A DNA stretch of 64,000 bases from Shewanella vesiculosa (GTDB taxonomy: Bacteria > Pseudomonadota > Gammaproteobacteria > Enterobacterales > Shewanellaceae), in the NCBI RefSeq assembly GCF_021560015.1, contig NZ_CP073588.1, forward strand, positions 3,704,501-3,768,500. Direction: 5' to 3'. Shown here piece after piece: positions 16,648-28,481 of the stretch. The stretch's first letter is position 1, and each line of letters begins with the position of its first letter. The notes under the pieces were generated by a model. That model was given only the letters and a program-made list of their open reading frames with translations, did not search any database and had not been told where the DNA came from. The position numbers and the translations under genes were made by a program.

Positions 16648-17418
16648 TTAATGATTCTTTGTTGCAGCTTGCTGCTTAAATAGCATTAAACACAACACCA
16701 TACCAAAGAGTAGTGCCGCCGATGCAGTAAAGCGACTAAATTCTAATCCACCATGGCTAATGGGTTTATCTAAAAAGTCACCGACTACAGCACCTAAAGG
16801 TCTGGTTAAAATAAAGCTAAGCCAAAACAACAGTGTGCGAGATATTGGGCTCCAAAGATAGGCTGCTAATAATACTAATAGCATACTACCAAAGATAAGC
16901 GCGCTGGCATCGTAACCTAAACCGGCGCTATCCACAGTCCAGTCGCCTAAAGCTGTACCTAGGGTTTGTGACAGTAAAATCGTAACCCAATAAAAGCATT
17001 CGGTTTTGGTATTGTTTATCGATTGATTAGACAGGCTACCGGCACTGACGTACCAAATTGAAAATGACATGCACAATAAGCTCACCAGTAACAGTGTGCC
17101 CCCGGTATAGCCTATGCCTAATGAGCGGTCGGCAAAGTCTGCCATGGTAGTGCCTGCAGTAGTTGTGGCGATAATGGTGGCCCAATAAATACTCGAAGAA
17201 TAATGTTTACTGCGAATTTGTATTGCTACCGCTATCGCGAATAAACCGATAAAAATAACTGAGCTCACTAAATAGCCGAGGTTAAGCGACATCGATAAAG
17301 CATCACCTGCCGTTTCGCCTAAGGTGGTCGCCAGTATTTTAACCAGCCAAAATATTAAGGTGACTTGTGGCACTTTAGCCCGCGCCTGCTGTTGTAGTGT
17401 TTCCATATCGATACTCAC
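16648..17418 (-). CDS. COG4705 family membrane protein, copy B
   Basis: 256 aa, about eight hydrophobic segments. It has repeated internal motifs: an N-terminal PQVTLIFWLVKILATTLGET, a central LLSQTLGTALGDWTVD and a C-terminal FILTRPLGAVVGDFLDKP. Each has the T/S-x-GE/GD-x pattern in a helix, suggesting duplicated transport-like units. It is paralogous to the gene immediately upstream (13-base gap), so a tandem duplication. Substrate unknown. In one operon with the two-component pair. Confidence 0.75.
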   Translation of the reverse strand: MSIDMETLQQQARAKVPQVTLIFWLVKILATTLGETAGDALSMSLNLGYLVSSVIFIGLFAIAVAIQIRSKHYSSSIYWATIIATTTAGTTMADFADRSLGIGYTGGTLLLVSLLCMSFSIWYVSAGSLSNQSINNTKTECFYWVTILLSQTLGTALGDWTVDSAGLGYDASALIFGSMLLVLLAAYLWSPISRTLLFWLSFILTRPLGAVVGDFLDKPISHGGLEFSRFTASAALLFGMVLCLMLFKQQAATKNH

Positions 17419-17431
17419 TTATGTTGATCTA

Positions 17432-18235
17432 TTATTGGCTTTTTTGCTGTTTGGCGCGCACTGAAAGGTAAGCTACAAGTGCAACAATAATCGCTAAAAA
17501 AACAATACTGGTGCTGGTGGTGCCAAACCCAAAGCCACCTTTACGAACCGGTTGTGATAATAAATCACCGATAGAGGCACCCAGTGGGCGGGTTAAGATA
17601 TATGCCAACCAAAAGCACAATACTGCATTGGCTTTGAAGCGATAAAAAGCCACGCTAATGACAGTGATTAAACCACCAAATATCAAAGCCGAAAGGCCGA
17701 AGCCAACATTCATGTCTTCAGATACCCAATCACCGACTGCAGTGCCTAAAGCAAAGGTAATGAGAATGGCCAGCCAATAAAATAATTCACGCTTAAGAGT
17801 GACAATGGAATGAATCGATAAAGTACGTTCTTTGCTAAACCAGTATGCAAATGTTGCCGCTAATAATAGGCTAAACACCGCAGTCGATACTGGCAAAGGC
17901 ACATCAAGTTTGTCTGTGAGAATGTCGGTGACTAAGGTGCCAAAAATACTGATAAGTACCACTACACCCCAATAAGCATATGGGCGATAGCGAGTTTGCT
18001 TAAGCTGCACCAATAAGGCGACAAGTAATAATATCCCCATGATGATGCTGGTATTAATCATGCCTACATGAAGATGGAAGCTAAGATAATCTGCTGCGGT
18101 TTCTCCTACCGTGGTCGACATCATTTTTATTACCCAAAAGATCAGCGTGATTTCGGGCACTTTATTAAGCCAAGTATTTGGTGATAGGTCATTCGGCGTT
18201 GTGTGAATAGATGATGCTTTGGTTAAAGGTTTCAT
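17432..18235 (-). CDS. COG4705 family membrane protein, copy A
   Basis: 267 aa paralogue of the downstream gene, with the same three motif blocks: PEITLIFWVIKMMSTTVGET, TFALGTAVGDWVSED and YILTRPLGASIGDLLSQP. First gene of the operon that continues through the response regulator and kinase; an AAGGA-type ribosome site precedes the ATG. Function unknown; family members are predicted integral inner-membrane proteins. Confidence 0.75.
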   Translation of the reverse strand: MKPLTKASSIHTTPNDLSPNTWLNKVPEITLIFWVIKMMSTTVGETAADYLSFHLHVGMINTSIIMGILLLVALLVQLKQTRYRPYAYWGVVVLISIFGTLVTDILTDKLDVPLPVSTAVFSLLLAATFAYWFSKERTLSIHSIVTLKRELFYWLAILITFALGTAVGDWVSEDMNVGFGLSALIFGGLITVISVAFYRFKANAVLCFWLAYILTRPLGASIGDLLSQPVRKGGFGFGTTSTSIVFLAIIVALVAYLSVRAKQQKSQ

Positions 18236-18351: not shown

Positions 18352-18367
18352 TTGGACTGCATTCCAA
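18352..18367. promoter_or_regulatory. Imperfect copy of the TTGGAAT palindrome
   Basis: TTGGACTGCATTCCAA, one base off a perfect dyad, 100 bp upstream of the stronger site at 18467. A third related copy precedes dddY. Confidence 0.45.
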
Positions 18368-18466
18368 TATCTCTGCTTGGTAACAGATCCCGCTAAAATT
18401 TCTACTCATAATTGATAAGTCGATATTTGTTGTTATTTTCACCAAACATTAACAACAGTTCCCGTT

Positions 18467-18482
18467 TTGGAATTGATTCCAT
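18467..18482. promoter_or_regulatory. Shared operator TGGAAT-N2-ATTCCA upstream of the flavin reductase gene
   Basis: TTGGAATTGATTCCAT, perfect over TGGAAT/ATTCCA, ends 43 bases before the ATG at 18526. The same element (TTGGAATTAATTCCAT) sits at 20664-20679 before dddY, so one regulator probably serves both units. Confidence 0.65.
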
Positions 18483-18525
18483 CGATATGATGAAGCGTCA
18501 ATAATATAAAAAGGGGTGATAACCT

Positions 18526-20046
18526 ATGAGCAATATCGATCTATTAGGGCGCCGTAAGTTTATTGCAGGTCTAGGCATTGCTGCTGGTGCAGCGATGGTA
18601 GCACCAGCAATGGCTGTGTCTGAAAAGGCAGAAGGGGTTAAATGGGACAAAGAAGTTGAAATCGTCATTATTGGTTCTGGTTTTGCGGGGTTAGCTGCCG
18701 CAATCGAAGCCACCAAACATGGTGCAAAAGACGTCCATATATTTGAAAAAATGTCCTATTTTGGCGGTAACTCGGCAATTAACGGTGGGCTTTTCGCCGC
18801 ACCTGGTACGCCGATGCAAAAGAAAGAAGGCGTTGAAGACTCAGTAGACAAAATGGTTAATGATCAATTATTGTCTGGCCGTGGCATTGCCGATGAAGGG
18901 TTATTACGCCATGTCGCATCTCATGCGGTTGAAGCGTTACAAATGACCTTAGATGCGGGTTCTGAATACCATCCTTACTTACAACAACTGGGCGGTCACT
19001 CGGTTGCACGTACATACCAAACCTCAGTAAGTTGTGGTGCTGGTATTACTCAGCCATTGTACAAAGAGTGCAAACGTATTGGTGTAAACACCCACAATCG
19101 TTCAAAATTTGAAGGATTCCTCGTCGGTAATAAAGGCGAAGTTGTTGGTGTTAAAATGCGTCAAAACTATCACTTTGGCGAAGATCAGCCTGGTAAGGTT
19201 CTCAATATTCGCGCCAAACGTGGTGTGATTATGGCTACTGGTGGCTTTGCGCAAAACGTTGATTTACGGATGGCGCAAGATCCAACCTTAACTGCAGATG
19301 TGGGTTGTACCAACGCACCAGGTGCAACAGGCGAGGGCATGTTTGAAATGTTCCGTTTAGGTGCTATCCCTGTGCATTTAGCTCACATTCAATCTGGTCC
19401 TTGGGCTTCACCTGATGAAGGTGGCTTTGGTTATGTGTCTAACTATTCAATTTTCAATTTACCTCATTCAATTGCCGTTAGCCGGACAACCGGTAAGCGT
19501 TTCATGAATGAGATTGCCGATCGCAAAACACGTGCTGATGCTGAATTAAGTAACCGTGATGAAAAAGGCAATCCTGTACCACCACTGTTGATTTCAAGCT
19601 TTAAAGATTCTAAAGCACATCCAAATACCGAAAAAGTGATTAAGTACAATGTCGGCTGGAAGTTTGATTCAGTTGAAGAGTTGGCAACACACTTTGGTGT
19701 GCCTTTAGCGGGGTTAACAGCACAAATCGCTGAATACAATGGCTATGTAAAAACGGGTGAAGATAAGCAATTTGGTAAAGATATGACCTTGGCGAAAAAT
19801 AAAATGATCGAAGCGCCATTTACTGTCGTTCGTTTGTGGCCAAAAGTGCATTACTGCCAAGGCGGTGTAAAAGTAAACACCAAAGCCGAAGTAACAGATA
19901 GTTTTACTGGTAAGTCTATTACTGGCCTTTATGCCGCTGGTGAAGTGTGTGGTGGTATTCATGGTGTTAGTCGTCTAGGGAGTTGTTCTATTCCAGAATG
20001 TATGGTGATGGGTATGACTGCAGCTAGAAGTCTCATGAAAGTTTAA
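18526..20046 (+). CDS. Tat-exported FAD fumarate-reductase-like flavoprotein, probable acrylate reductase flavin subunit
   Basis: 506 aa. Twin-arginine signal (GRRKFIAGLGIAAGAAMVAPAMA), then the FAD_binding_2 fold of fumarate reductases with dinucleotide motif GSGFAG at 50-55 and FGGNSAINGG. Active-site region differs from fumarate reductase Fcc3: HHTMGG becomes HYCQGG, and the last Arg motif reads SRLGSCSIPEC with extra cysteines. There is no covalent-FMN domain and no haem domain; the haems are on the next gene, as in two-subunit methacrylate/acrylate reductases. With DddY downstream making acrylate in the same compartment, acrylate is the best substrate guess (inference). Ribosome site AAGGGGTG. 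Confidence 0.8.
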   Translation: MSNIDLLGRRKFIAGLGIAAGAAMVAPAMAVSEKAEGVKWDKEVEIVIIGSGFAGLAAAIEATKHGAKDVHIFEKMSYFGGNSAINGGLFAAPGTPMQKKEGVEDSVDKMVNDQLLSGRGIADEGLLRHVASHAVEALQMTLDAGSEYHPYLQQLGGHSVARTYQTSVSCGAGITQPLYKECKRIGVNTHNRSKFEGFLVGNKGEVVGVKMRQNYHFGEDQPGKVLNIRAKRGVIMATGGFAQNVDLRMAQDPTLTADVGCTNAPGATGEGMFEMFRLGAIPVHLAHIQSGPWASPDEGGFGYVSNYSIFNLPHSIAVSRTTGKRFMNEIADRKTRADAELSNRDEKGNPVPPLLISSFKDSKAHPNTEKVIKYNVGWKFDSVEELATHFGVPLAGLTAQIAEYNGYVKTGEDKQFGKDMTLAKNKMIEAPFTVVRLWPKVHYCQGGVKVNTKAEVTDSFTGKSITGLYAAGEVCGGIHGVSRLGSCSIPECMVMGMTAARSLMKV

Positions 20047-20074
20047 TTAGACCAGTGAACAAGAGGAATCATTA

Positions 20075-20428
20075 ATGAAAAACTTTAATATTATACTTGG
20101 GCTGGTACTACTTGGATTAACCAGTTTATCGGTACAGTCAGCAGAGATCCGTGACTATCATAAAGAGGTTATCGGTAAAGACTGTAAAACCTGTCATGAC
20201 AATGGCATCAAGCAGTTTCCATCTGATCAATCCTGTTTGCAGTGTCATGATGTTGATGACTTAGCAAAGAAAACCGCCCGAAGTGAAGAAGACAAGTGGC
20301 AGAACCCACACAATAACCTTCACTATGGCAAAGATGTACCTTGCCAAGAGTGTCATGGCGAACATACACCTAAAAAACCATTATGCAGTAACTGTCATAC
20401 GTTTAAGTTTGATAAGCATAAAGGCTAA
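20075..20428 (+). CDS. Periplasmic tetraheme cytochrome c, electron donor to the flavin subunit
   Basis: 117 aa with a cleavable signal peptide (MKNFNIILGLVLLGLTSLSVQSA) and four CXXCH haem sites: CKTCH, CLQCH, CQECH and CSNCH, plus extra histidines for axial ligation. It resembles the haem domain of Shewanella flavocytochrome c, here as a separate protein. It lies 28 bases after the flavoprotein gene with its own AGAGGAA ribosome site. It would carry electrons from a quinol dehydrogenase such as CymA (not in the window) to the reductase. Confidence 0.88.
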   Translation: MKNFNIILGLVLLGLTSLSVQSAEIRDYHKEVIGKDCKTCHDNGIKQFPSDQSCLQCHDVDDLAKKTARSEEDKWQNPHNNLHYGKDVPCQECHGEHTPKKPLCSNCHTFKFDKHKG

Positions 20429-20455
20429 ACTAATTTAAATTTATATTAGTTCAAT

Positions 20456-20488
20456 AAGCCACATATTAAGTATTTAATGTGGCTTTTA
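20456..20488 (+). terminator. Terminator after the tetraheme cytochrome gene
   Basis: AAGCCACAT...ATGTGGCTT hairpin followed by TTATATTTTT. Confidence 0.75.
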
Positions 20489-20594
20489 TATTTTTATAAT
20501 TAGTATTCTATTAATTTTTATATATTTAGCGTTTTATTAATTTAGACTTTTAATAATTAGGTTTTGTTTAACGAGTTTGTGTTGTTAATGACTT

Positions 20595-20617
20595 AAGTTA
20601 ATGTGTGGCATTAACTT
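20595..20617. promoter_or_regulatory. Second dyad upstream of dddY
   Basis: AAGTTAATG-N5-CATTAACTT, a perfect 9-bp inverted repeat about 50 bp upstream of the TGGAAT palindrome. Possible activator site. Confidence 0.45.
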
Positions 20618-20664
20618 TGGTTTTGGTAAATATATTTGTTGTAAATAGGTTGAATGTAAGTTTT

Positions 20665-20678
20665 TGGAATTAATTCCA
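20665..20678. promoter_or_regulatory. Shared operator TGGAATTAATTCCA upstream of dddY
   Basis: Perfect 14-bp palindrome, 45 bases before the dddY ATG; same core as the element before the flavin reductase gene. Confidence 0.65.
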
Positions 20679-20723
20679 TGGTTAATATCTTGCTGACGTT
20701 AATAATAAAGCAAGAGAGATGTG

Positions 20724-21968
20724 ATGAAGTATAATACGCTATTAATCATGATGATGTTGTCTAGCTCAGCTATGGCAAGTGAGTTACCTAGCTTTTTAGA
20801 TTCTAATGATATTAACAATGCAGAGTTTGCCTGTTTAGGAGAGGAACCTCAGTACGATAAAAATGATCAAAAATATGTCGATATTTTATGGAATGAAACC
20901 CTGCAATACTTACAATCTTACGCGGTAGCATTAACCAATAGTGAAAACGGCCCTTGCTTAAATTCAGATCAAGCAATGTACGATTCTACTGAAGGTGGTA
21001 AGAAAATGTGCATTATGGATCGCACAGACATGAAGCTATTAGTTAAAAACATTTATCAAGTTATCAATAATCCAGACAAAGCTAAAAAGTGTTTTGGTGC
21101 ACGCCAAGACGTCGATTGGATATACAGCCCTGGTGGCCAATTAGCCCAAAACTCCCCCGTAGCGAAATGGCTTAAACGCACAACATTTGAGACCTTTTTT
21201 GATACTAAAGTGACTAATAAAGAAGTCCGTAAACTTGGTAAACAGTTTACTAAAAACTTTACCAAAATGGTGACGGGTGATGAAGTGAAGATGCCCTCAG
21301 CGTTCCCAACAGATATTAGTGCCAATGCATTACCTAACTTATGGGCTGCTGCAGGTTGGTACCCAATGTATGCCGAAGAAAGTAAGCGTAATGATAAAAA
21401 CTTCAACAACATACGTGGTGGTTATGCCTATGCCGAAATTTTTGGTCACTGGGGACTATTACGCATAGACGAAATTAACGGAGAAAAGGTTGGTGCAGAA
21501 GTCGGTATGACAGTGCAATCAGTTGACACTTTATACCCATATCATAACCATGCAATATCTGAAATTTATTACAATATGCGAGTGCCTGCGTGTGCGAATG
21601 AATTTAAGAGTTTTGCAGTGCGCGAAGATTCACCGTTAATTAACACTGTTAAAGAAGACGACAAAGTCAGACAAGTTCAGTTTGATGCAGGCCAACACAA
21701 TGGGCAGACCATGTGGCTGTCAGGCAGTGCTGTTATCGATCCACTCATGTATTTTCATCAAAACACTATTCATGCTTTTGAAGTCGATGGCAGCTGTGAA
21801 GCTAAACCACAAGAGCGCGCAATCGTATCTGTTTGGGCAAGAAGCAATGCAAACGACAAGCGTAATGATTATGGCACCACATTGCTTTGTGAGTCAGCTA
21901 ATAAACCCGGTACACCCGCTCATAAAGATGAAGTTATTCAATGTGACTTAACAAAAATTAAATGGTAG
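20724..21968 (+). CDS. dddY: Periplasmic DMSP lyase DddY
   Basis: Cleaves dimethylsulfoniopropionate to dimethyl sulfide and acrylate in the periplasm. 414 aa with a signal peptide (MKYNTLLIMMMLSSSAMA). The cupin motif HNHAISEIYY gives H276, E280 and Y282, and H350 lies in NTIHAFEV. The His-x3-Glu-x-Tyr spacing and distant His match the metal/catalytic set I recall for Alcaligenes DddY (H265, E269, Y271, H338). Length fits the family (about 400). The ATG at 20724 is preferred to the GTG at 20721; AAGAGAG lies upstream. It has its own promoter region with the shared palindrome, and a porin gene follows. Confidence 0.88.
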   Translation: MKYNTLLIMMMLSSSAMASELPSFLDSNDINNAEFACLGEEPQYDKNDQKYVDILWNETLQYLQSYAVALTNSENGPCLNSDQAMYDSTEGGKKMCIMDRTDMKLLVKNIYQVINNPDKAKKCFGARQDVDWIYSPGGQLAQNSPVAKWLKRTTFETFFDTKVTNKEVRKLGKQFTKNFTKMVTGDEVKMPSAFPTDISANALPNLWAAAGWYPMYAEESKRNDKNFNNIRGGYAYAEIFGHWGLLRIDEINGEKVGAEVGMTVQSVDTLYPYHNHAISEIYYNMRVPACANEFKSFAVREDSPLINTVKEDDKVRQVQFDAGQHNGQTMWLSGSAVIDPLMYFHQNTIHAFEVDGSCEAKPQERAIVSVWARSNANDKRNDYGTTLLCESANKPGTPAHKDEVIQCDLTKIKW

Positions 21969-22007
21969 CTGCCAAATTATTAATTATCGAATTAGGAATG
22001 CAATAAA

Positions 22008-23135
22008 ATGAAATTATTAAAGTTATCTTTATTATCTTCTTTAGTGTCACTGAGTATGGTTTCTTGTTACTCAATAGCACAAGATGTTGAAGATGGAATT
22101 AACGTTTCCGGTACGTTAAGAGCTAATTATTCATATAAACAATATAGTGATAGTTCTAAAGATAAATCAGGTGATTTAACTTTTGAAATGGCGTCAGTTA
22201 AATTCAACGGTAAATTAGATGATTGGGGTTTATCTTCTGAATATCGATTTTATGATGGTTGGGAGGCATTAAGGTATGGCTATGCTTTTTATGATTACTC
22301 ACCAGAGTGGCAAGTTCAAATTGGTATAAATCAAGTGCCATTTGGTAACCCGGGTTTTATTTCAAATAGTTTTTGGTTTGGCGTACCGTATTATTTAGGT
22401 TTTGAAGACGACTATGATGCAGGTATTAAAACTGTTTATTCAAATAATGGTTGGGGGACTGAGTTTGCATTTTATAAAGGCGCTGAATATGGTGCCAGTC
22501 GTAATGAACGATATTCAACAGACTTATATTCTGGTCAGGTCAACGGTACCGACTATTACAATGAAGAAACTAACCAATTAAACTTACGTCAAACCTATGC
22601 TATGGAGTATGAAGGCGGTAAAACCGTGGTCGGTGCTTCGGTCGAGGTGGGGCAAATTTATAATAGTAATACGGGTAATAATGGTGATAGATATGCCGTC
22701 GCCTTACATCTTGACAGTAGTTATAAAGGTTGGGCGTTGCAGTTACAGGCAATGCAATATGAGTACAATGCAGCAGATGCGTTAGACGATAACAAGCTTG
22801 CGGTATCGGCTTATAATTGGCAATACGAAATTGCGTCTAAAGCGCAAGCTTATAGCATAAACATTGCTAAAACGATCACTACCAGCTGGGGCAGTGCAAA
22901 AATCTATAATGACTTTGGCGTGGTAACCCCCGATGTTGACAATGAAGACTACGATAGCAGCTACCAAAATGTTACTGGGGTTGCGTTATCTTCCGGACCA
23001 ACATACACCATGATTGATTTTATTATGGGTAAGAATATGTATGCCTCTACGCTTGATAATGGCCATGTTGGCCTACCTGAAATCGGCGACAGCTGGGATC
23101 ATCGTATTAATATCAATTTTGGTTACTATTTTTAA
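22008..23135 (+). CDS. Outer-membrane porin of the DMSP/acrylate cluster
   Basis: 375 aa, signal peptide ending near SIAQD, then beta strands rich in aromatic girdle residues and a C-terminal Phe (NINFGYYF), typical of a trimeric-porin-like barrel. Conserved-looking INQVPFGNPGF and aromatic-rich segments resemble porins of the OprP/DUF1302 kind. It is 39 bases after dddY, so probably co-transcribed. A role in letting DMSP or acrylate through the outer membrane is inferred from position only. Confidence 0.72.
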   Translation: MKLLKLSLLSSLVSLSMVSCYSIAQDVEDGINVSGTLRANYSYKQYSDSSKDKSGDLTFEMASVKFNGKLDDWGLSSEYRFYDGWEALRYGYAFYDYSPEWQVQIGINQVPFGNPGFISNSFWFGVPYYLGFEDDYDAGIKTVYSNNGWGTEFAFYKGAEYGASRNERYSTDLYSGQVNGTDYYNEETNQLNLRQTYAMEYEGGKTVVGASVEVGQIYNSNTGNNGDRYAVALHLDSSYKGWALQLQAMQYEYNAADALDDNKLAVSAYNWQYEIASKAQAYSINIAKTITTSWGSAKIYNDFGVVTPDVDNEDYDSSYQNVTGVALSSGPTYTMIDFIMGKNMYASTLDNGHVGLPEIGDSWDHRININFGYYF

Positions 23136-23181
23136 TTGCTAGTTGATTCGTTAGATAGTCACGTTTCACTTTTATCTCTTA

Positions 23182-23209
23182 AATGCCAATCCTTGGATTG
23201 GTATTTTTC
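23182..23209 (+). terminator. Terminator after the porin gene
   Basis: CCAATCC-TT-GGATTGG hairpin followed by TATTTTTCT. Confidence 0.75.
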
Positions 23210-23420
23210 TATTTCCACTAACACTAACCGCTGTCTTTTATTACATCATTAGCAAAAAATGGTTAATAAAACTGCTAATAAAACTCATCTTATGCCTTTC
23301 AGTAGCGTTAATTAATCCAGGTCTACATTCGGCCAAGCTCAACAGAGTAATATCGCGATCTTTAAAGTAGCAATCGCTGCTATTTCATTGACGTATTTTG
23401 GTTTGAATAGAGTTAACACT

Positions 23421-24722
23421 ATGATGATAATAGAAATAATAATTGTGCTTGGGTCTATTTACCTTGGTGCAAGAATGGGCAGTATAGGGATAGGTTTTGC
23501 TGGCGGCGTAGGGGTATTAATTCTTACCGTCGGTTTAGGATTAACACCTGGTGCGATCCCTATCGACGTGATGCTGATTATTATGTCAGTGATCACCGCG
23601 ATTGCTGCGATGCAAGAGGCCGGAGGGATGGAGTATTTGGTGTCAATAGCGGAAAAACTACTGCGTAAACACCCTAAGCACATCACATTTTTAGGGCCAA
23701 TGGTAACGTATTTTATGACCTTATTTGCCGGAACGGGCCACACTGCATTCTCGACATTACCAGTTATAGCCGAAGTCGCCAAAGAGCAGGGCATACGACC
23801 ATCTCGGCCTCTATCTATCGCAGTTGTCGCCTCGCAAGTTGCCATCACGGCCTCTCCTATTTCTGCCGCAGTGGTGTTTTTCTCGGGTATTTTAGAACCG
23901 TTCGGGGTGGATTATTTAGTGCTATTAGCCGTATGCATCCCCTCAACCTTTATTGCTTGTTTAATTGGTGCTGCTGTTGCCTCGATGCTCGGCAAACCGT
24001 TAGCGCAAGACCCCATTTATCAACAGCGTTTAGCCAGCGGACTCGTCAATATTCGGGGTGAAACCCAAGTCACTTTGCAACCTGGCGCTAGAAGGTCGGT
24101 GGCTATTTTTCTAGTCGCGATAGTGGCGGTAATGTCTTACGCCACAGCCATTTCTGACAAAGTGGGCTTAATTGTGAACCCAGTGCTGTCGCGCGATGTG
24201 GCGATTATGTTGTTTATGCTCTCTGCCGCAGCGGCGATCACTTGGTTTTGCCGTTTAGATGCCAGCAAGATTTCTAATGCATCAACGTTTAAGTCGGGCA
24301 TGTCAGCGTGTATTTGTGTGTTGGGCGTAGCTTGGTTGGGTGACACCTTTGTGTCTAATCATATTGACGAGATAAAAGCTGTTGCGGGAACCTTGCTCCA
24401 AAGTCAGCCATGGTTATTATCGGTGGCATTATTTTTTGCTTCTATGTTGCTCTATTCTCAAGGTGCGACCACTAAAGCGTTAATGCCAGCTGCATTGGCA
24501 ATTGGGGTGAGTCCATTAACGGCAGTTGCTTCGTTTGCGGCGGTGAGTGCGTTATTTGTATTACCAACTTATCCGACGTTATTGGCGGCGGTAGAAATGG
24601 ATGACACTGGCTCCACTCGTATTGGCAAGGCGGTGTTTAACCACCCATTTTTAATCCCAGGCGTAGTGACCATAGTATCGAGTGTGTTATTGGCCTTTTT
24701 GTTTGGCAGCTTGATTATGTAA
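23421..24722 (+). CDS. DcuA/DcuB-type anaerobic C4-dicarboxylate transporter
   Basis: About 433 aa, many transmembrane helices. It follows DcuB throughout: IDVMLIIMSVITAIAAMQEAGG, LFAGTGHTAFSTLPVI, ASQVAITASPISAAVV, LPTYPTLLAA and IGKAVFNHPFLIPG. Dcu proteins exchange fumarate, succinate and similar acids. Here it may move acrylate, propionate or another product across the inner membrane (inference). Start at ATG 23421 rather than the TTG at 23388. It is behind a terminator and 285 bases from the porin, so probably a separate transcript. I saw no copy of the TGGAAT palindrome in front of it. Confidence 0.83.
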   Translation: MMIIEIIIVLGSIYLGARMGSIGIGFAGGVGVLILTVGLGLTPGAIPIDVMLIIMSVITAIAAMQEAGGMEYLVSIAEKLLRKHPKHITFLGPMVTYFMTLFAGTGHTAFSTLPVIAEVAKEQGIRPSRPLSIAVVASQVAITASPISAAVVFFSGILEPFGVDYLVLLAVCIPSTFIACLIGAAVASMLGKPLAQDPIYQQRLASGLVNIRGETQVTLQPGARRSVAIFLVAIVAVMSYATAISDKVGLIVNPVLSRDVAIMLFMLSAAAAITWFCRLDASKISNASTFKSGMSACICVLGVAWLGDTFVSNHIDEIKAVAGTLLQSQPWLLSVALFFASMLLYSQGATTKALMPAALAIGVSPLTAVASFAAVSALFVLPTYPTLLAAVEMDDTGSTRIGKAVFNHPFLIPGVVTIVSSVLLAFLFGSLIM

Positions 24723-24755: not shown

Positions 24756-25622
24756 TTAGTTGATTTGATAGCCTTTATGCTCAACATTGGCTTTTATTAA
24801 ATTAATTAATTGCAAGGTCGCATAGGTTTGAGTATCTGGGTTGAGGTAAAGCGATTCGTTAAACATCGGCAGTGGCGGTAAGCCATGTTCAAGTGGATCT
24901 AAAATCTGCATTTTATCGTTTATTCTAAATTCGGCTACCGGCGCAATCACAAGATCATTTTCGACCGCCATCGATAACGCTTGTGGGGATGGTGTTGACA
25001 GTAATACCCTTATCGGACGCATAGACAATTGATGATTGGCGAATACTTGTGCTCGAATAGGGCAGTTTTCTGGGTATAAGCCCACGGGGATGGTTTTGTT
25101 TTTATGGGCGTTACCGTTAGCTGCTGCGGCCCAATGAAAGCGGCGCGTAAATAACAGTTCGCCGTTGACGGGGGCTTGCCAGTGAGTTGCGACTATCACG
25201 TCAAACTCGCCTTGATGGAGTCGTTTATATAAATTGCCACTTACATCGGTATCGATAACTAATTCTATATTGGTAAATTCACGAATAAACTCTAATAAGC
25301 AGCTGCTTAGGTAGCATTTGATAAAATCGGTTGGCACACCAAGGCGGATCACTTCGCGATTTTGACAATCTTTTAACTCATCAAGTGCCTGTAAGTTAAG
25401 TTGCATCATTTTATAGGCATAGCTCAGCAAGGTTTCACCTGACTCGGTCAAGGTGACGCCTTTGTTGTCCCTAATCAGCAAAGTTTGACCGACACTTTCT
25501 TCAAGCTTTTTAACTTGTAGGCTCAACGTTGATTGGGTTCGGCAAATTTTATCAGCCGCTTTTGACAAGTTGCCACATTCAGCAACAGCGATAAAACTTT
25601 CAAGTAAGTCAATTTTTAACAT
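24756..25622 (-). CDS. LysR-family regulator next to the DMSP/acrylate cluster
   Basis: 288 aa. N-terminal winged helix-turn-helix (LLESFIAVAECGNLSKAADKICRTQSTLSLQVKKLEE) and a substrate-binding domain. It converges on the Dcu gene (33-base gap). A candidate to bind the TGGAAT palindromes, though LysR sites are more often T-N11-A. Its own start faces the TetR gene. Confidence 0.85.
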   Translation of the reverse strand: MLKIDLLESFIAVAECGNLSKAADKICRTQSTLSLQVKKLEESVGQTLLIRDNKGVTLTESGETLLSYAYKMMQLNLQALDELKDCQNREVIRLGVPTDFIKCYLSSCLLEFIREFTNIELVIDTDVSGNLYKRLHQGEFDVIVATHWQAPVNGELLFTRRFHWAAAANGNAHKNKTIPVGLYPENCPIRAQVFANHQLSMRPIRVLLSTPSPQALSMAVENDLVIAPVAEFRINDKMQILDPLEHGLPPLPMFNESLYLNPDTQTYATLQLINLIKANVEHKGYQIN

Positions 25623-25743
25623 GGGCTATTGAGTAAGTTCATAGTGGTATAAGTATTACTCAATTTAGGCTATCCACAAAGCTTGCTATAGTGTAACTGT
25701 GAGGTGTTAATGGTTATTTAATTAAAATATCTTGGAGTAAGGA

Positions 25744-26376
25744 ATGGGTAGTTGGGAGGATCGTGGGAACTACTTGATTGAAGTGTCACAACGTTGTTTA
25801 AAAGGCCATAAAACCTTTGATTTATGCCGCTCGCATCTAGTTCAAGCCAGCCAGATATCCAAGGGCACTATTTATAATCACTTTACCTCAGAGGCCGATT
25901 TAATTGTGGCCGTAGCCAGTGCAGATTATCGCTATTGGTTAATTCAAGCCGAACAAGATACACAGCAATATAGTGATCCCTATTTACGGTTTATTTTTCA
26001 TCATTGCCAACGTTTGTACCGTATTTTATCTGAACAATCATTTGTTATTGCTAGAGTGATCCCCAACGAGTCAATACTAATACAAGCCAGCGATTATTAT
26101 CGTGCCCGTTTTGAGCGAGTACTTAAACAATATCAACAATGGAATGCACAAACCCTGACAGAGATTGGTGAGGTTGGTGGCTTTAATCGTGGCGAGTTGC
26201 TTTGTGACTATTTACGCGGTGCTATGATCAACAGTGACGATGCACAAAAGCATCCCGACGATGCTGAAATGTACTACCAGTTTAGTTTTGCCATGACCCA
26301 GCTCATGGGCCATTCACACAAACGCATGCCCACGATTAATACATTCCTGCAGTGGCTAGCCGGTAAACCCGCATAA
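25744..26376 (+). CDS. TetR-family regulator
   Basis: 210 aa. The N-terminal recognition helix region ISKGTIYNHFTSEADLIVAV is typical of TetR, though the preceding HTH is less canonical. The C-terminal ligand domain is unassigned. GGAG/AAGGA precede the ATG. Divergent from the LysR gene and the last gene of the block; a palindrome-binding repressor is what the TGGAAT dyads would suit, so this is the other candidate regulator. Confidence 0.75.
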   Translation: MGSWEDRGNYLIEVSQRCLKGHKTFDLCRSHLVQASQISKGTIYNHFTSEADLIVAVASADYRYWLIQAEQDTQQYSDPYLRFIFHHCQRLYRILSEQSFVIARVIPNESILIQASDYYRARFERVLKQYQQWNAQTLTEIGEVGGFNRGELLCDYLRGAMINSDDAQKHPDDAEMYYQFSFAMTQLMGHSHKRMPTINTFLQWLAGKPA

Positions 26377-26817: not shown

Positions 26818-26905
26818 GGCAAACTAATTGAAAAGTTAGGACGCAAAGCTTCCGGTCTAAGGTGGTAAATTAATTTTTACGAAACTAAGATAGCGGAGTT
26901 GCCGC
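26818..26905 (+). promoter_or_regulatory. c-di-GMP-I (GEMM) riboswitch
   Basis: The consensus blocks are in order: GGCAAACTAATTGAAAAGTT, then GGACGCAAAGCTTCCGGTCTAAGG, a variable arm (GGTGGTAAATT...TTTAC), and TAGCGGAGTTGCCGC. The conserved GGACGCAAAGC and TAGCGGxGTTGCCG elements are diagnostic. The leader runs on about 130 bases to the gbpA-like start. In Vibrio cholerae, gbpA is also preceded by such a riboswitch (Vc1). Confidence 0.92.
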
Positions 26906-27036
26906 AGAGCTCAGGTTCTGCGTGAAACGAACAGCCGTTTTTTTAACGCTGTTGTTTGCCAAAATACCACTTTGATATTGATATCGAGGCCTATCACTTA
27001 TTTTTAAGTAATAGGTAACCAATGGAGTGCATTTAA

Positions 27037-28481
27037 GTGGAAAATCTTCCTGTTTTACCTCATGTTTCTAAGTTAAGCCTACTCGCAGCCTCACTTATGG
27101 CTGCAAATTCTTTCGTCAGTCTGTCTGTTGAGCGCATGGTTATGTGCTATCGCCAGAGTCACGCTCATACGCTTGTAAAACTGGCAATAATGCAAGCTGT
27201 GGCGCCGTTCAGTGGGAGCCACAAAGTGTTGAAGGGCCTTCGGGATTCCCTGAATCAGGCCCTGAAGATGGTAAGTTAGCGAGTGCTGCAAATGGTGCCT
27301 TTTCTCCTCTAGATGTTCAGAGTCCGGTCCGTTGGTCTAAAACGGATATCAACGCCGGATGGCAGCAATTTACTTGGCAGTTTACCGCTAACCATGTCAC
27401 CCGTAACTGGCGCTATTATATTACTCGCCAGGGTTGGGACCAAAACCAAGCCTTAAGCCGCGCTAGTTTCGATTTAGCGCCTTTTTGTGTGGTCGATGGT
27501 GGCATGGTTCAGCCACCTAAATTAGTTACTCATGACTGTTACGTGCCAGAGGGACTAAGTGGTTACCACGTTATTTTAGCCGTATGGCAAGTCGGTGACA
27601 CCAGCAATAGTTTCTATAATGCTATTGATGTCAATTTGAGTTCAGGCCCGGGAATCCCTAACGAATGGCAAGATGTGGGTGACATTAATCCGTCACTGGA
27701 TCTCAAGGCTGGTGACAAAGTGATGACCAGGGTATTTGATGCTAATGGCGAGCAGCTCTCTAAGCAAACCACGATTACAATTACCGATGCGACTCAAGGT
27801 GATAAACAGAATTGGCCTTTCCTTCTTGCCAGCACTATTAATGCGCAGCAATCACAACTCAATGCAGGACAAAAGAATGCCGCTGGCAGTATCATGCCGG
27901 TTTACGGTAAAAATGATATTTTTACCCTAACTGACTCAGGTATTGAGCGTGTCGAAGTCGAGTTTGATTTAGCGCCTGTCCCAGGGAATCAACTCGATGT
28001 GACCTCGCTTGCTGATGCAATTCAAATCAACGATGGTGCGGCTCAAGTTAGTTTTGATGTGACAACCAATACCGCTATGCAAGTGTCAGCTTATTTATTT
28101 AATCATGATGGCGTTGCATCTGGATTTGTGAGTCAAGCGGTTAATAATACCAATGCGAGTTTAGTGCTGGAGGTTGTAGCACCTAAAGTTGGCCATTATC
28201 ACTTACAAGTTAAAGGTGAACCTCAGCAAGGGGATGTCATCCAGCAGAACTTTGATGTGTTTTTAAAGGATGAGCTACCAGTACCAGAAGCCGACTTCGT
28301 GTTTCCAGCTGAAGTGACGCGTTATGTTACCGGCACTAAGGTTTTGCAACCTAAGACAGGTAAGGTTTATCAATGTAAACCTTTCCCATACGGCGGCTAC
28401 TGTATGCAGTGGTCAGCTTCTGCTACCAGTTATGAGCCGGGCGTAGGAGCTTCTTGGGCGGTAGCATGGACTGAATTGTAA
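27037..28481 (+). pseudogene. gbpA: GbpA-like chitin-binding protein with LPMO domain, frameshift in the signal peptide
   Basis: Secreted N-acetylglucosamine-binding protein. Domains: AA10 lytic polysaccharide monooxygenase (mature His1 would be the CAT at 27135, in AHGYVLSPESRSYAC; CGAVQWEPQSVEG, FTANHVTRNWRYYIT), two GbpA middle domains, and a C-terminal chitin-binding domain (VYQCKPFPYGGYCMQW). It matches V. cholerae GbpA over its whole length. The signal peptide starts at GTG 27037 behind GGAG, but the frame shifts around 27129-27132: adding one base (for instance GTTGAAGCGCAT) would join ...SFVSLSVE to AHGY. As given, the export signal is separated from the enzyme. Confidence 0.85.

Follow-up and report, generated by a model that had tools for sequence, protein, structure and literature searches.

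Described acrylate reductases and the module of Shewanella vesiculosa

Cleavage of dimethylsulfoniopropionate (DMSP) is a main source of atmospheric dimethyl sulfide (DMS). The ArdAB enzyme of Shewanella woodyi, reportedly described by Bertsova and colleagues in Biochemistry (Moscow) in 2024, is said to be acrylate-specific and to support DMSP-dependent anaerobic respiration. A module very probably of the same type, i.e., a predicted periplasmic respiratory system leading from DMSP to propionate under likely TetR-like control, lies within a 64,000-nucleotide stretch of the Shewanella vesiculosa genome (contig NZ_CP073588.1, positions 3,704,501 to 3,768,500; hereafter the window, in whose numbering all features are placed). 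The genome comprised a single contig of 4.78 Mb. Five adjacent plus-strand genes spanned positions 18526-24722, at the places given in an earlier sequence-only reading: a twin-arginine translocation (Tat)-type flavoprotein, a tetraheme cytochrome, the DMSP lyase DddY, a porin, and a Dcu transporter. Beyond 24722 the module continued with a minus-strand LysR gene, followed by a divergent, plus-strand TetR-like gene.

The enzymes belong to a type that has been described before, and their linkage to dddY has been in print since 2012, when a flavocytochrome c and a tetraheme cytochrome were drawn beside dddY, as in the fccA-fccB-dddY-acuI cluster of Shewanella sp. MR-4 (available part of PMC3338564). 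According to the same source, acuI is linked in eight of nine dddY-bearing Shewanella species, S. frigidimarina excepted. In having acuI unlinked, the window resembles S. frigidimarina and differs from the MR-4 cluster. S. frigidimarina was also the closest relative at the locus (98% flavoprotein identity) among 66 loci, a set gathered in a single scan for peptide patterns of the window protein and including loci cut by contig ends. In Geobacter sulfurreducens AM-1, the Mrd/Mcc system consists of a periplasmic Tat flavoprotein and a tetraheme cytochrome; it reduces acrylate and methacrylate at comparable rates and does not reduce fumarate (accessible text of PMC4427408). Its likeness to the window module is one of description, both being two-part periplasmic systems of flavoprotein and cytochrome. 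That text also names a Shewanella pair (YP_751192 and YP_751191) with the Tat motif RRNIIK, as against RRKFIA in the window; the two pairs may be different.

Two regulatory precedents were compared. AcuR of Rhodobacter sphaeroides is an acrylate-responsive TetR-family repressor of acuR-acuI-dddL with its operator at the promoter (available part of PMC3017554). The window regulator would likewise be a TetR-family protein tied to a DMSP lyase operon with an operator at the promoter, but the AcuR operator given there is TAATAGAC-N6-GTCTATTA, whereas that of the window is TGGAA-N4-TTCCA and is paired at ardA. A 2011 reconstruction of Shewanella regulons predicted from gene clusters the local regulators SO1415 and SO3627 for flavocytochrome c (PMC3223726). 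In its main text, to which the comparison with the window was confined, acrylate, DMSP and dddY are not mentioned, and Table 2 lists neither regulator as present in S. frigidimarina or S. woodyi, which are the nearest species to the window cluster and to ArdAB.

The catalytic subunit ArdA (18526-20046, plus strand; 506 amino acids) was assigned as a Tat-type flavin adenine dinucleotide (FAD) flavoprotein by family match (TIGR01813, 492 bits) and orthology. A homologue search scored 7997 candidates, and among the best 120 of 2948 matches was an S. woodyi protein, 80% identical to ArdA across its full length (952 bits, 100% query coverage) and named "Acrylate reductase flavoprotein subunit" in UniRef. 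That protein, which we take to be the ArdA of ArdAB, was identical to the ArdA (P0034) of the S. woodyi locus L142, where the gene order is ardA-ardB-dddY-lysR-tetR. Because the S. woodyi orthologue bears this name, acrylate is the expected substrate of the window ArdA, and the enzyme core is nearly certainly the orthologue of a known acrylate reductase. The separate tetraheme cytochrome and the adjoining dddY were likewise common to both loci, as were lysR (80%) and the tetR-like gene (58%). The porin after dddY and the Dcu transporter occurred only in the window; acuI and a second LysR gene upstream occurred only in S. woodyi. A literature search, beyond whose reach most subscription journals lay, found no paper joining "acrylate reductase", DddY and Shewanella.

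The active site of ArdA departed from that of fumarate reductase. HYCQGG and SRLGSCSIPEC were invariant in nine of nine aligned orthologues (Shewanella, Ferrimonas, Paraferrimonas and one record labelled Marinobacter), and SRLGSCSIPEC was one residue off in all three rows at 63-64% identity (P0108, P0109 and P0117). HYCQGG also occurred in paralogues of 54-62% identity, so this motif alone is not diagnostic for acrylate; others, at 41-46%, had HYCMGG. The fumarate reductase FccA carries a haem domain fused to the flavoprotein, HHTxGG, and a His/Thr clamp. ArdA had no CXXCH, although the same genome encodes a 596-amino-acid FccA-like protein with four, and it had HYCQGG, with IQSGPWASPDEGGFGYVSN replacing IQAHPTLSVKGG-VMVT. 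The FccA stretch replaced by GPWASPDEGG is presumably the clamp for the second carboxylate, and the replacement fits a predicted monocarboxylate substrate. Both R333 and R483, as aligned with the genome's own FccA-like protein, were retained in ArdA; we assume that they are the proton donor and the carboxylate ligand. In a search of the PDB, the urocanate reductase UrdA was the third distinct match; by score, the only comparison made with UrdA, it reached 197.5 bits and FccA 217.9. UrdA has a covalent-FMN (flavin mononucleotide) domain, and no FMN-binding domain was among the 10 Pfam families matched in a Pfam scan. The ArdA tree comprised 21 rows including one FccA, with UrdA and Mrd left out. 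The Tat motif RRKFIA had a loose RRxFhh-like counterpart in 66 of 69 ArdA open reading frames (ORFs), from a set made up of the 66 loci plus three more, in which ORFs were clustered and identities taken from one representative per cluster.

The electron-transfer subunit gene ardB (20075-20428, plus strand) started 28 bp downstream of ardA as a separate gene. Its 117-amino-acid tetraheme cytochrome c contained four CXXCH motifs, as did the ORFs of all 63 relatives, and its leader was Sec-type as judged by eye. DddY (20721-21968, plus strand) exceeded the NCBIfam NF053571 cut-off of 650 with 778.1 bits, aligned with the solved structure 5xkx and also matched 5y4k. Its motifs YPYHNHAISEIY and NTIHAF were found at residues 272 and 348. 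The gene may start at ATG 20724 instead of GTG 20721. At another locus (L095, 12357-14882) two tandem dddY genes were seen, the second 43% identical to the window DddY; genome G058 showed the same arrangement and is perhaps the same genome.

Conservation of the module and its operator

Across the 66 loci, dddY was found in 42, lysR in 57 and the tetR-like gene in 56. Together, ardA, ardB, lysR and tetR were present in 55 loci, 16 of which had no dddY. The genus was also sampled more widely, with 117 of its larger number of genomes, at an ardA threshold of at least 69% identity (matches were listed down to about 41%): dddY was present in 52 genomes, ardA in 70 (three of them partial matches), and both in 50, leaving 20 ardA genomes with no dddY match. 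Where both were present, dddY lay at most 6 kb downstream of ardA on the same strand in 48 of the 50 genomes; in the other two the genes were on different contigs. The two genomes with dddY and no ardA were G004, whose dddY is separated from a contig end by 630 bases, and the 52% complete G101. As separate observations, the ardA-ardB pair was duplicated inside loci L091 and L119, and L123, in a record labelled Marinobacter nauticus, was closely related to L124 of Ferrimonas balearica, which points to either a transfer or a mislabelled assembly.

The inverted repeat TGGAA-N4-TTCCA marked the presumed promoters of ardA and dddY. In the window an exact copy (TGGAATTGATTCCA, 18468-18481) lay 58 bp upstream of the ardA start, and a distal, imperfect copy with one mismatch (TGGACTGCATTCCA, 18353-18366) lay 115 bp farther upstream, with similarly placed distal copies in most relatives. 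A second exact copy (TGGAATTAATTCCA, 20665-20678) was 56 bp upstream of the listed dddY start. A -10-like box, TATGAT (18486-18491, plus strand), which would serve as the ardA promoter, followed the proximal copy by 4 nt. Sixty-seven loci, including the window and two further loci, had enough sequence for a search of the 300 bp before ardA with one mismatch allowed. Exactly two operators were found in 59 loci, one in seven and none in one. In 52 of the 59 two-site loci the sites were 114-116 bp apart. Pairs farther upstream were carried by L122, the locus without any in this interval, and by L120, a one-site locus; their sites were 116 and 115 bp apart, respectively. Wherever the final 90 bp before ardA held a site (63 loci), a TAnnnT box followed it after exactly 4 nt; because this offset is fixed, the operator overlaps the likely promoter.

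In total, 150 exact operators were found in the 1.34 Mb of the 69 loci, against none for the reversed pattern; 100 were assigned to ardA and 29 to dddY. Possession of a separate dddY site followed the distance between ardB and dddY: 29 of 33 loci with a gap of at least 219 bp had one, as did none of 12 with a gap of 174 bp or less. It is as if dddY genes near ardB ride the ardAB transcript and distant ones have a switch of their own. Genome-wide, TGGAATNNATTCCA occurred at four places in the 4.78 Mb, two of them at the module (reversed control, one), and the looser TGGAANNNNTTCCA at nine, two at the module (reversed control, 12). The pattern is thus informative by position, not by genome-wide number. 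The other two exact sites of the window genome were rejected as marks of a regulon; both lie inside listed ORFs with no visible link to DMSP.

The sequence-only reading had described a split acrylate-respiration module built around the DMSP lyase, together with a Dcu-type transporter and a shared operator. Its split reductase and cytochrome adjoining DddY agree with the gene content and the S. woodyi orthologue. The two motifs that it had singled out are both present in ArdA and constant among the nine aligned orthologues, and the operator proved better supported than claimed, given its pairing before ardA and its copy at dddY. The central place given to DddY was not supported: constancy lies more with the reductase pair and the two regulators, with dddY as an optional insert, so the module is not centred on the lyase. 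Membership of the Dcu transporter, which has no operator, did not hold either.

Regulators, proposed mechanism and rival explanations

The LysR-type regulator (24756-25622, minus strand) was assigned by family match. The TetR-like regulator (25744-26376, plus strand) had no Pfam match and only one weak match by sequence; its structure model (predicted local distance difference test, pLDDT, 94.7) matched PDB entries of which those listed with a named function were TetR-family regulators (probability 1.00, template modelling score, TM, about 0.5-0.65). The divergent promoter between the two genes contained ATTACTCAAT (25655-25664), a candidate LysR site recognized by its conservation: with up to one mismatch allowed, 53 of 58 lysR-tetR intergenic regions contained it, as did 2% of shuffled ones. 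At loci L120 and L122, ATTACTCAAT was lost while an operator pair stayed. The LysR proteins of these loci were 33% identical in the DNA-binding part and 50-57% in the remainder; the TetR-like helix-turn-helix (HTH) was 73% identical in L120 and, in the genome of L122, 68% identical over residues 1-59. On these comparisons the TetR-like protein is, with somewhat better than even confidence, the candidate reader of TGGAA-N4-TTCCA, and LysR would more likely act at the lysR-tetR divergent promoter.

The proposed substrate, electron route and control are as follows. DMSP would enter via the porin and be split by periplasmic DddY into DMS and acrylate. Tat-exported ArdA, with its FAD, would then convert acrylate into propionate, taking the electrons from ArdB. 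ArdB itself probably receives them from menaquinol through a CymA/NapC-type cytochrome; three NapC/NirT-type cytochromes were found in the window genome. The TetR-like repressor most likely binds TGGAA-N4-TTCCA at the ardA and dddY promoters and would be released by acrylate. The spacing of about 115 bp between the two ardA sites is close to 11 helical turns and suggests cooperative or looped repression. A broader proposal, advanced tentatively and with slightly less than even confidence, is that a hitherto undescribed TetR-type regulon of DMSP/acrylate respiration is widespread in Shewanella and Ferrimonas. Its in-phase pair at ardAB would permit repression by looping, and copies of this operator at dddY, DcaP-type porin and dCache genes would place sensing, swimming, uptake, cleavage and respiration under one repressor lifted by acrylate. 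The pairing of the operator, its reuse upstream of dddY and of porin and chemoreceptor genes, and the indication of a TetR-like reader look new within limited searches, none made for the operator sequence and with supplements outside their scope.

Several observations weigh against this assignment of regulator and operator. The regulator was assigned from one related pair, L120 and L122, whose ArdA proteins are 91% identical to each other; the operator pairs there lie about 300-417 bp before ardA, compared with the usual 58 and 173, and the tetR gene of the L122 genome is split into two parts lying on separate contigs. Three loci (L123, L124 and L127) match ATTACTCAAT poorly despite a LysR HTH at 70%. 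The window lysR-tetR promoter has no operator and thus gives no sign that the TetR-like protein controls its own gene. Four long-gap loci (L086, L091, L098 and L143) have no dddY site. In 18 genomes hand-chosen among ardA carriers, the strict pattern occurred 61 times, compared with 81 for the reversed control, whose matches have no listed positions; 37 of the 61 strict sites were within 6 kb of ardA, with at least one in each of the 18 genomes.

That LysR and not the TetR-like protein reads the operator appears doubtful. LysR is the better conserved by identity and is present in one more of the 66 loci. It was also found at 62% identity or more in six of six tested genomes with an operator at the usual place; with LysR in all six, its presence alone does not decide the reader. 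The altered LysR DNA-binding domain of L120 and L122, where the operator pair is retained, argues against this reading, as do the different conserved motif at its own promoter and the position of the operator directly before the -10-like box, which is repressor-like. An earlier argument for LysR, that L120 and L122 seemed to be operator-less, was dropped; both retain the pair upstream and have the altered LysR domain.

Two further alternatives concern the enzymes themselves. ArdAB might serve detoxification first, clearing toxic periplasmic acrylate with energy gain secondary. Such an origin, for removal of lyase-made acrylate, is proposed for reductases of this kind in the accessible text of PMC4427408, and the AcuI-type gene of the window genome, the usual acrylate safeguard, is unlinked. 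A periplasmic tetraheme donor and Tat export suit a respiratory chain, and the 20 of 70 ardA genomes with no dddY match mean that acrylate need not be self-made; this alternative is considered unlikely. It is very improbable that the reductase acts on another 2-enoate and that its dddY neighbourhood is incidental. Reductases of the superfamily vary in substrate and paralogues share HYCQGG, but the close identity to a named acrylate reductase in a locus of the same order, the presence of ardA in nearly all dddY genomes (50 of 52), and operators common to lyase and reductase all favour acrylate. If the lyase is indeed part of a regulon for acrylate respiration, the supply of acrylate and electron acceptors, and not the need for carbon, should govern how it is expressed in anoxic sediments and particles. 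The operator would also provide a sequence handle for regulon genes across Shewanella and Ferrimonas, and for testing which regulator senses acrylate.

Porin, transporter and neighbouring genes

The outer-membrane porin gene (22008-23135, plus strand) started 39 bp past dddY and is probably on the dddY transcript. The protein had neither a Pfam match nor a PDB sequence match; its AlphaFold2 model (pLDDT 83.5) matched PDB porins with a Foldseek probability of 1.00 and a TM of about 0.5-0.6. Across the 69 loci, the neighbours recorded were an acuI-type gene upstream of ardA (38 loci), a second LysR gene (34), a porin (30), a DcaP porin (seven) and a dCache chemoreceptor (six). An operator within one mismatch was present at -53 to -73 in four of the seven dcaP genes and five of the six chemoreceptor genes. 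In L070, L075, L077, L084 and L144, the dCache chemoreceptor gene was downstream of the porin, with the ard operator (at most one mismatch) about 53-68 bp before its start; the encoded dCache protein is a candidate DMSP or acrylate chemoreceptor.

The Dcu-family C4-dicarboxylate transporter (23421-24722, plus strand) passed three Dcu-type models (e.g., TIGR00770, 619.5 against 331.35, and NF006927, 660.3 against 369). The listed ORF begins at TTG 23388, and ATG 23421 is the more likely start because the NF006927 match begins at residue 12. A terminator-like hairpin lay between the porin and Dcu genes (11 such hairpins in the region, 6.5 expected). A Dcu gene was present in only five of the 66 loci and is a local, accessory addition. 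It was rejected as a regulon member; no operator was found with up to three mismatches before the window gene, nor with up to one before five others. Scanning the region for consensus promoters gave no useful signal, with 14 matches where 22.5 were expected.

The group of loci to which the window belongs had no local acuI, and the one gene of the window genome above the AcuI/YhdH family cut-off lies unlinked at 2626739. In S. woodyi (L142, 4755-6749) and two further loci, a 665-amino-acid protein with no Pfam or NCBIfam match at the thresholds used is encoded between acuI and the second LysR gene. Downstream of the module (26900-28481), an ORF resembling a chitin-active lytic polysaccharide monooxygenase (LPMO), which we take to be GbpA-like, was apparently out of frame with its leader, having a mature-looking start (AHGYV) and a leader-like stretch in another frame; the frame break may reflect either a genuine lesion or an error in the sequence. 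On the other side, two tandem genes for DUF347 membrane proteins (16648-18235), next to a two-component pair, immediately preceded the module and were divergent from it. The DUF347 pair was also found at the S. frigidimarina locus (L067), and different genes occupied this place in the remaining loci of the 66-locus set.

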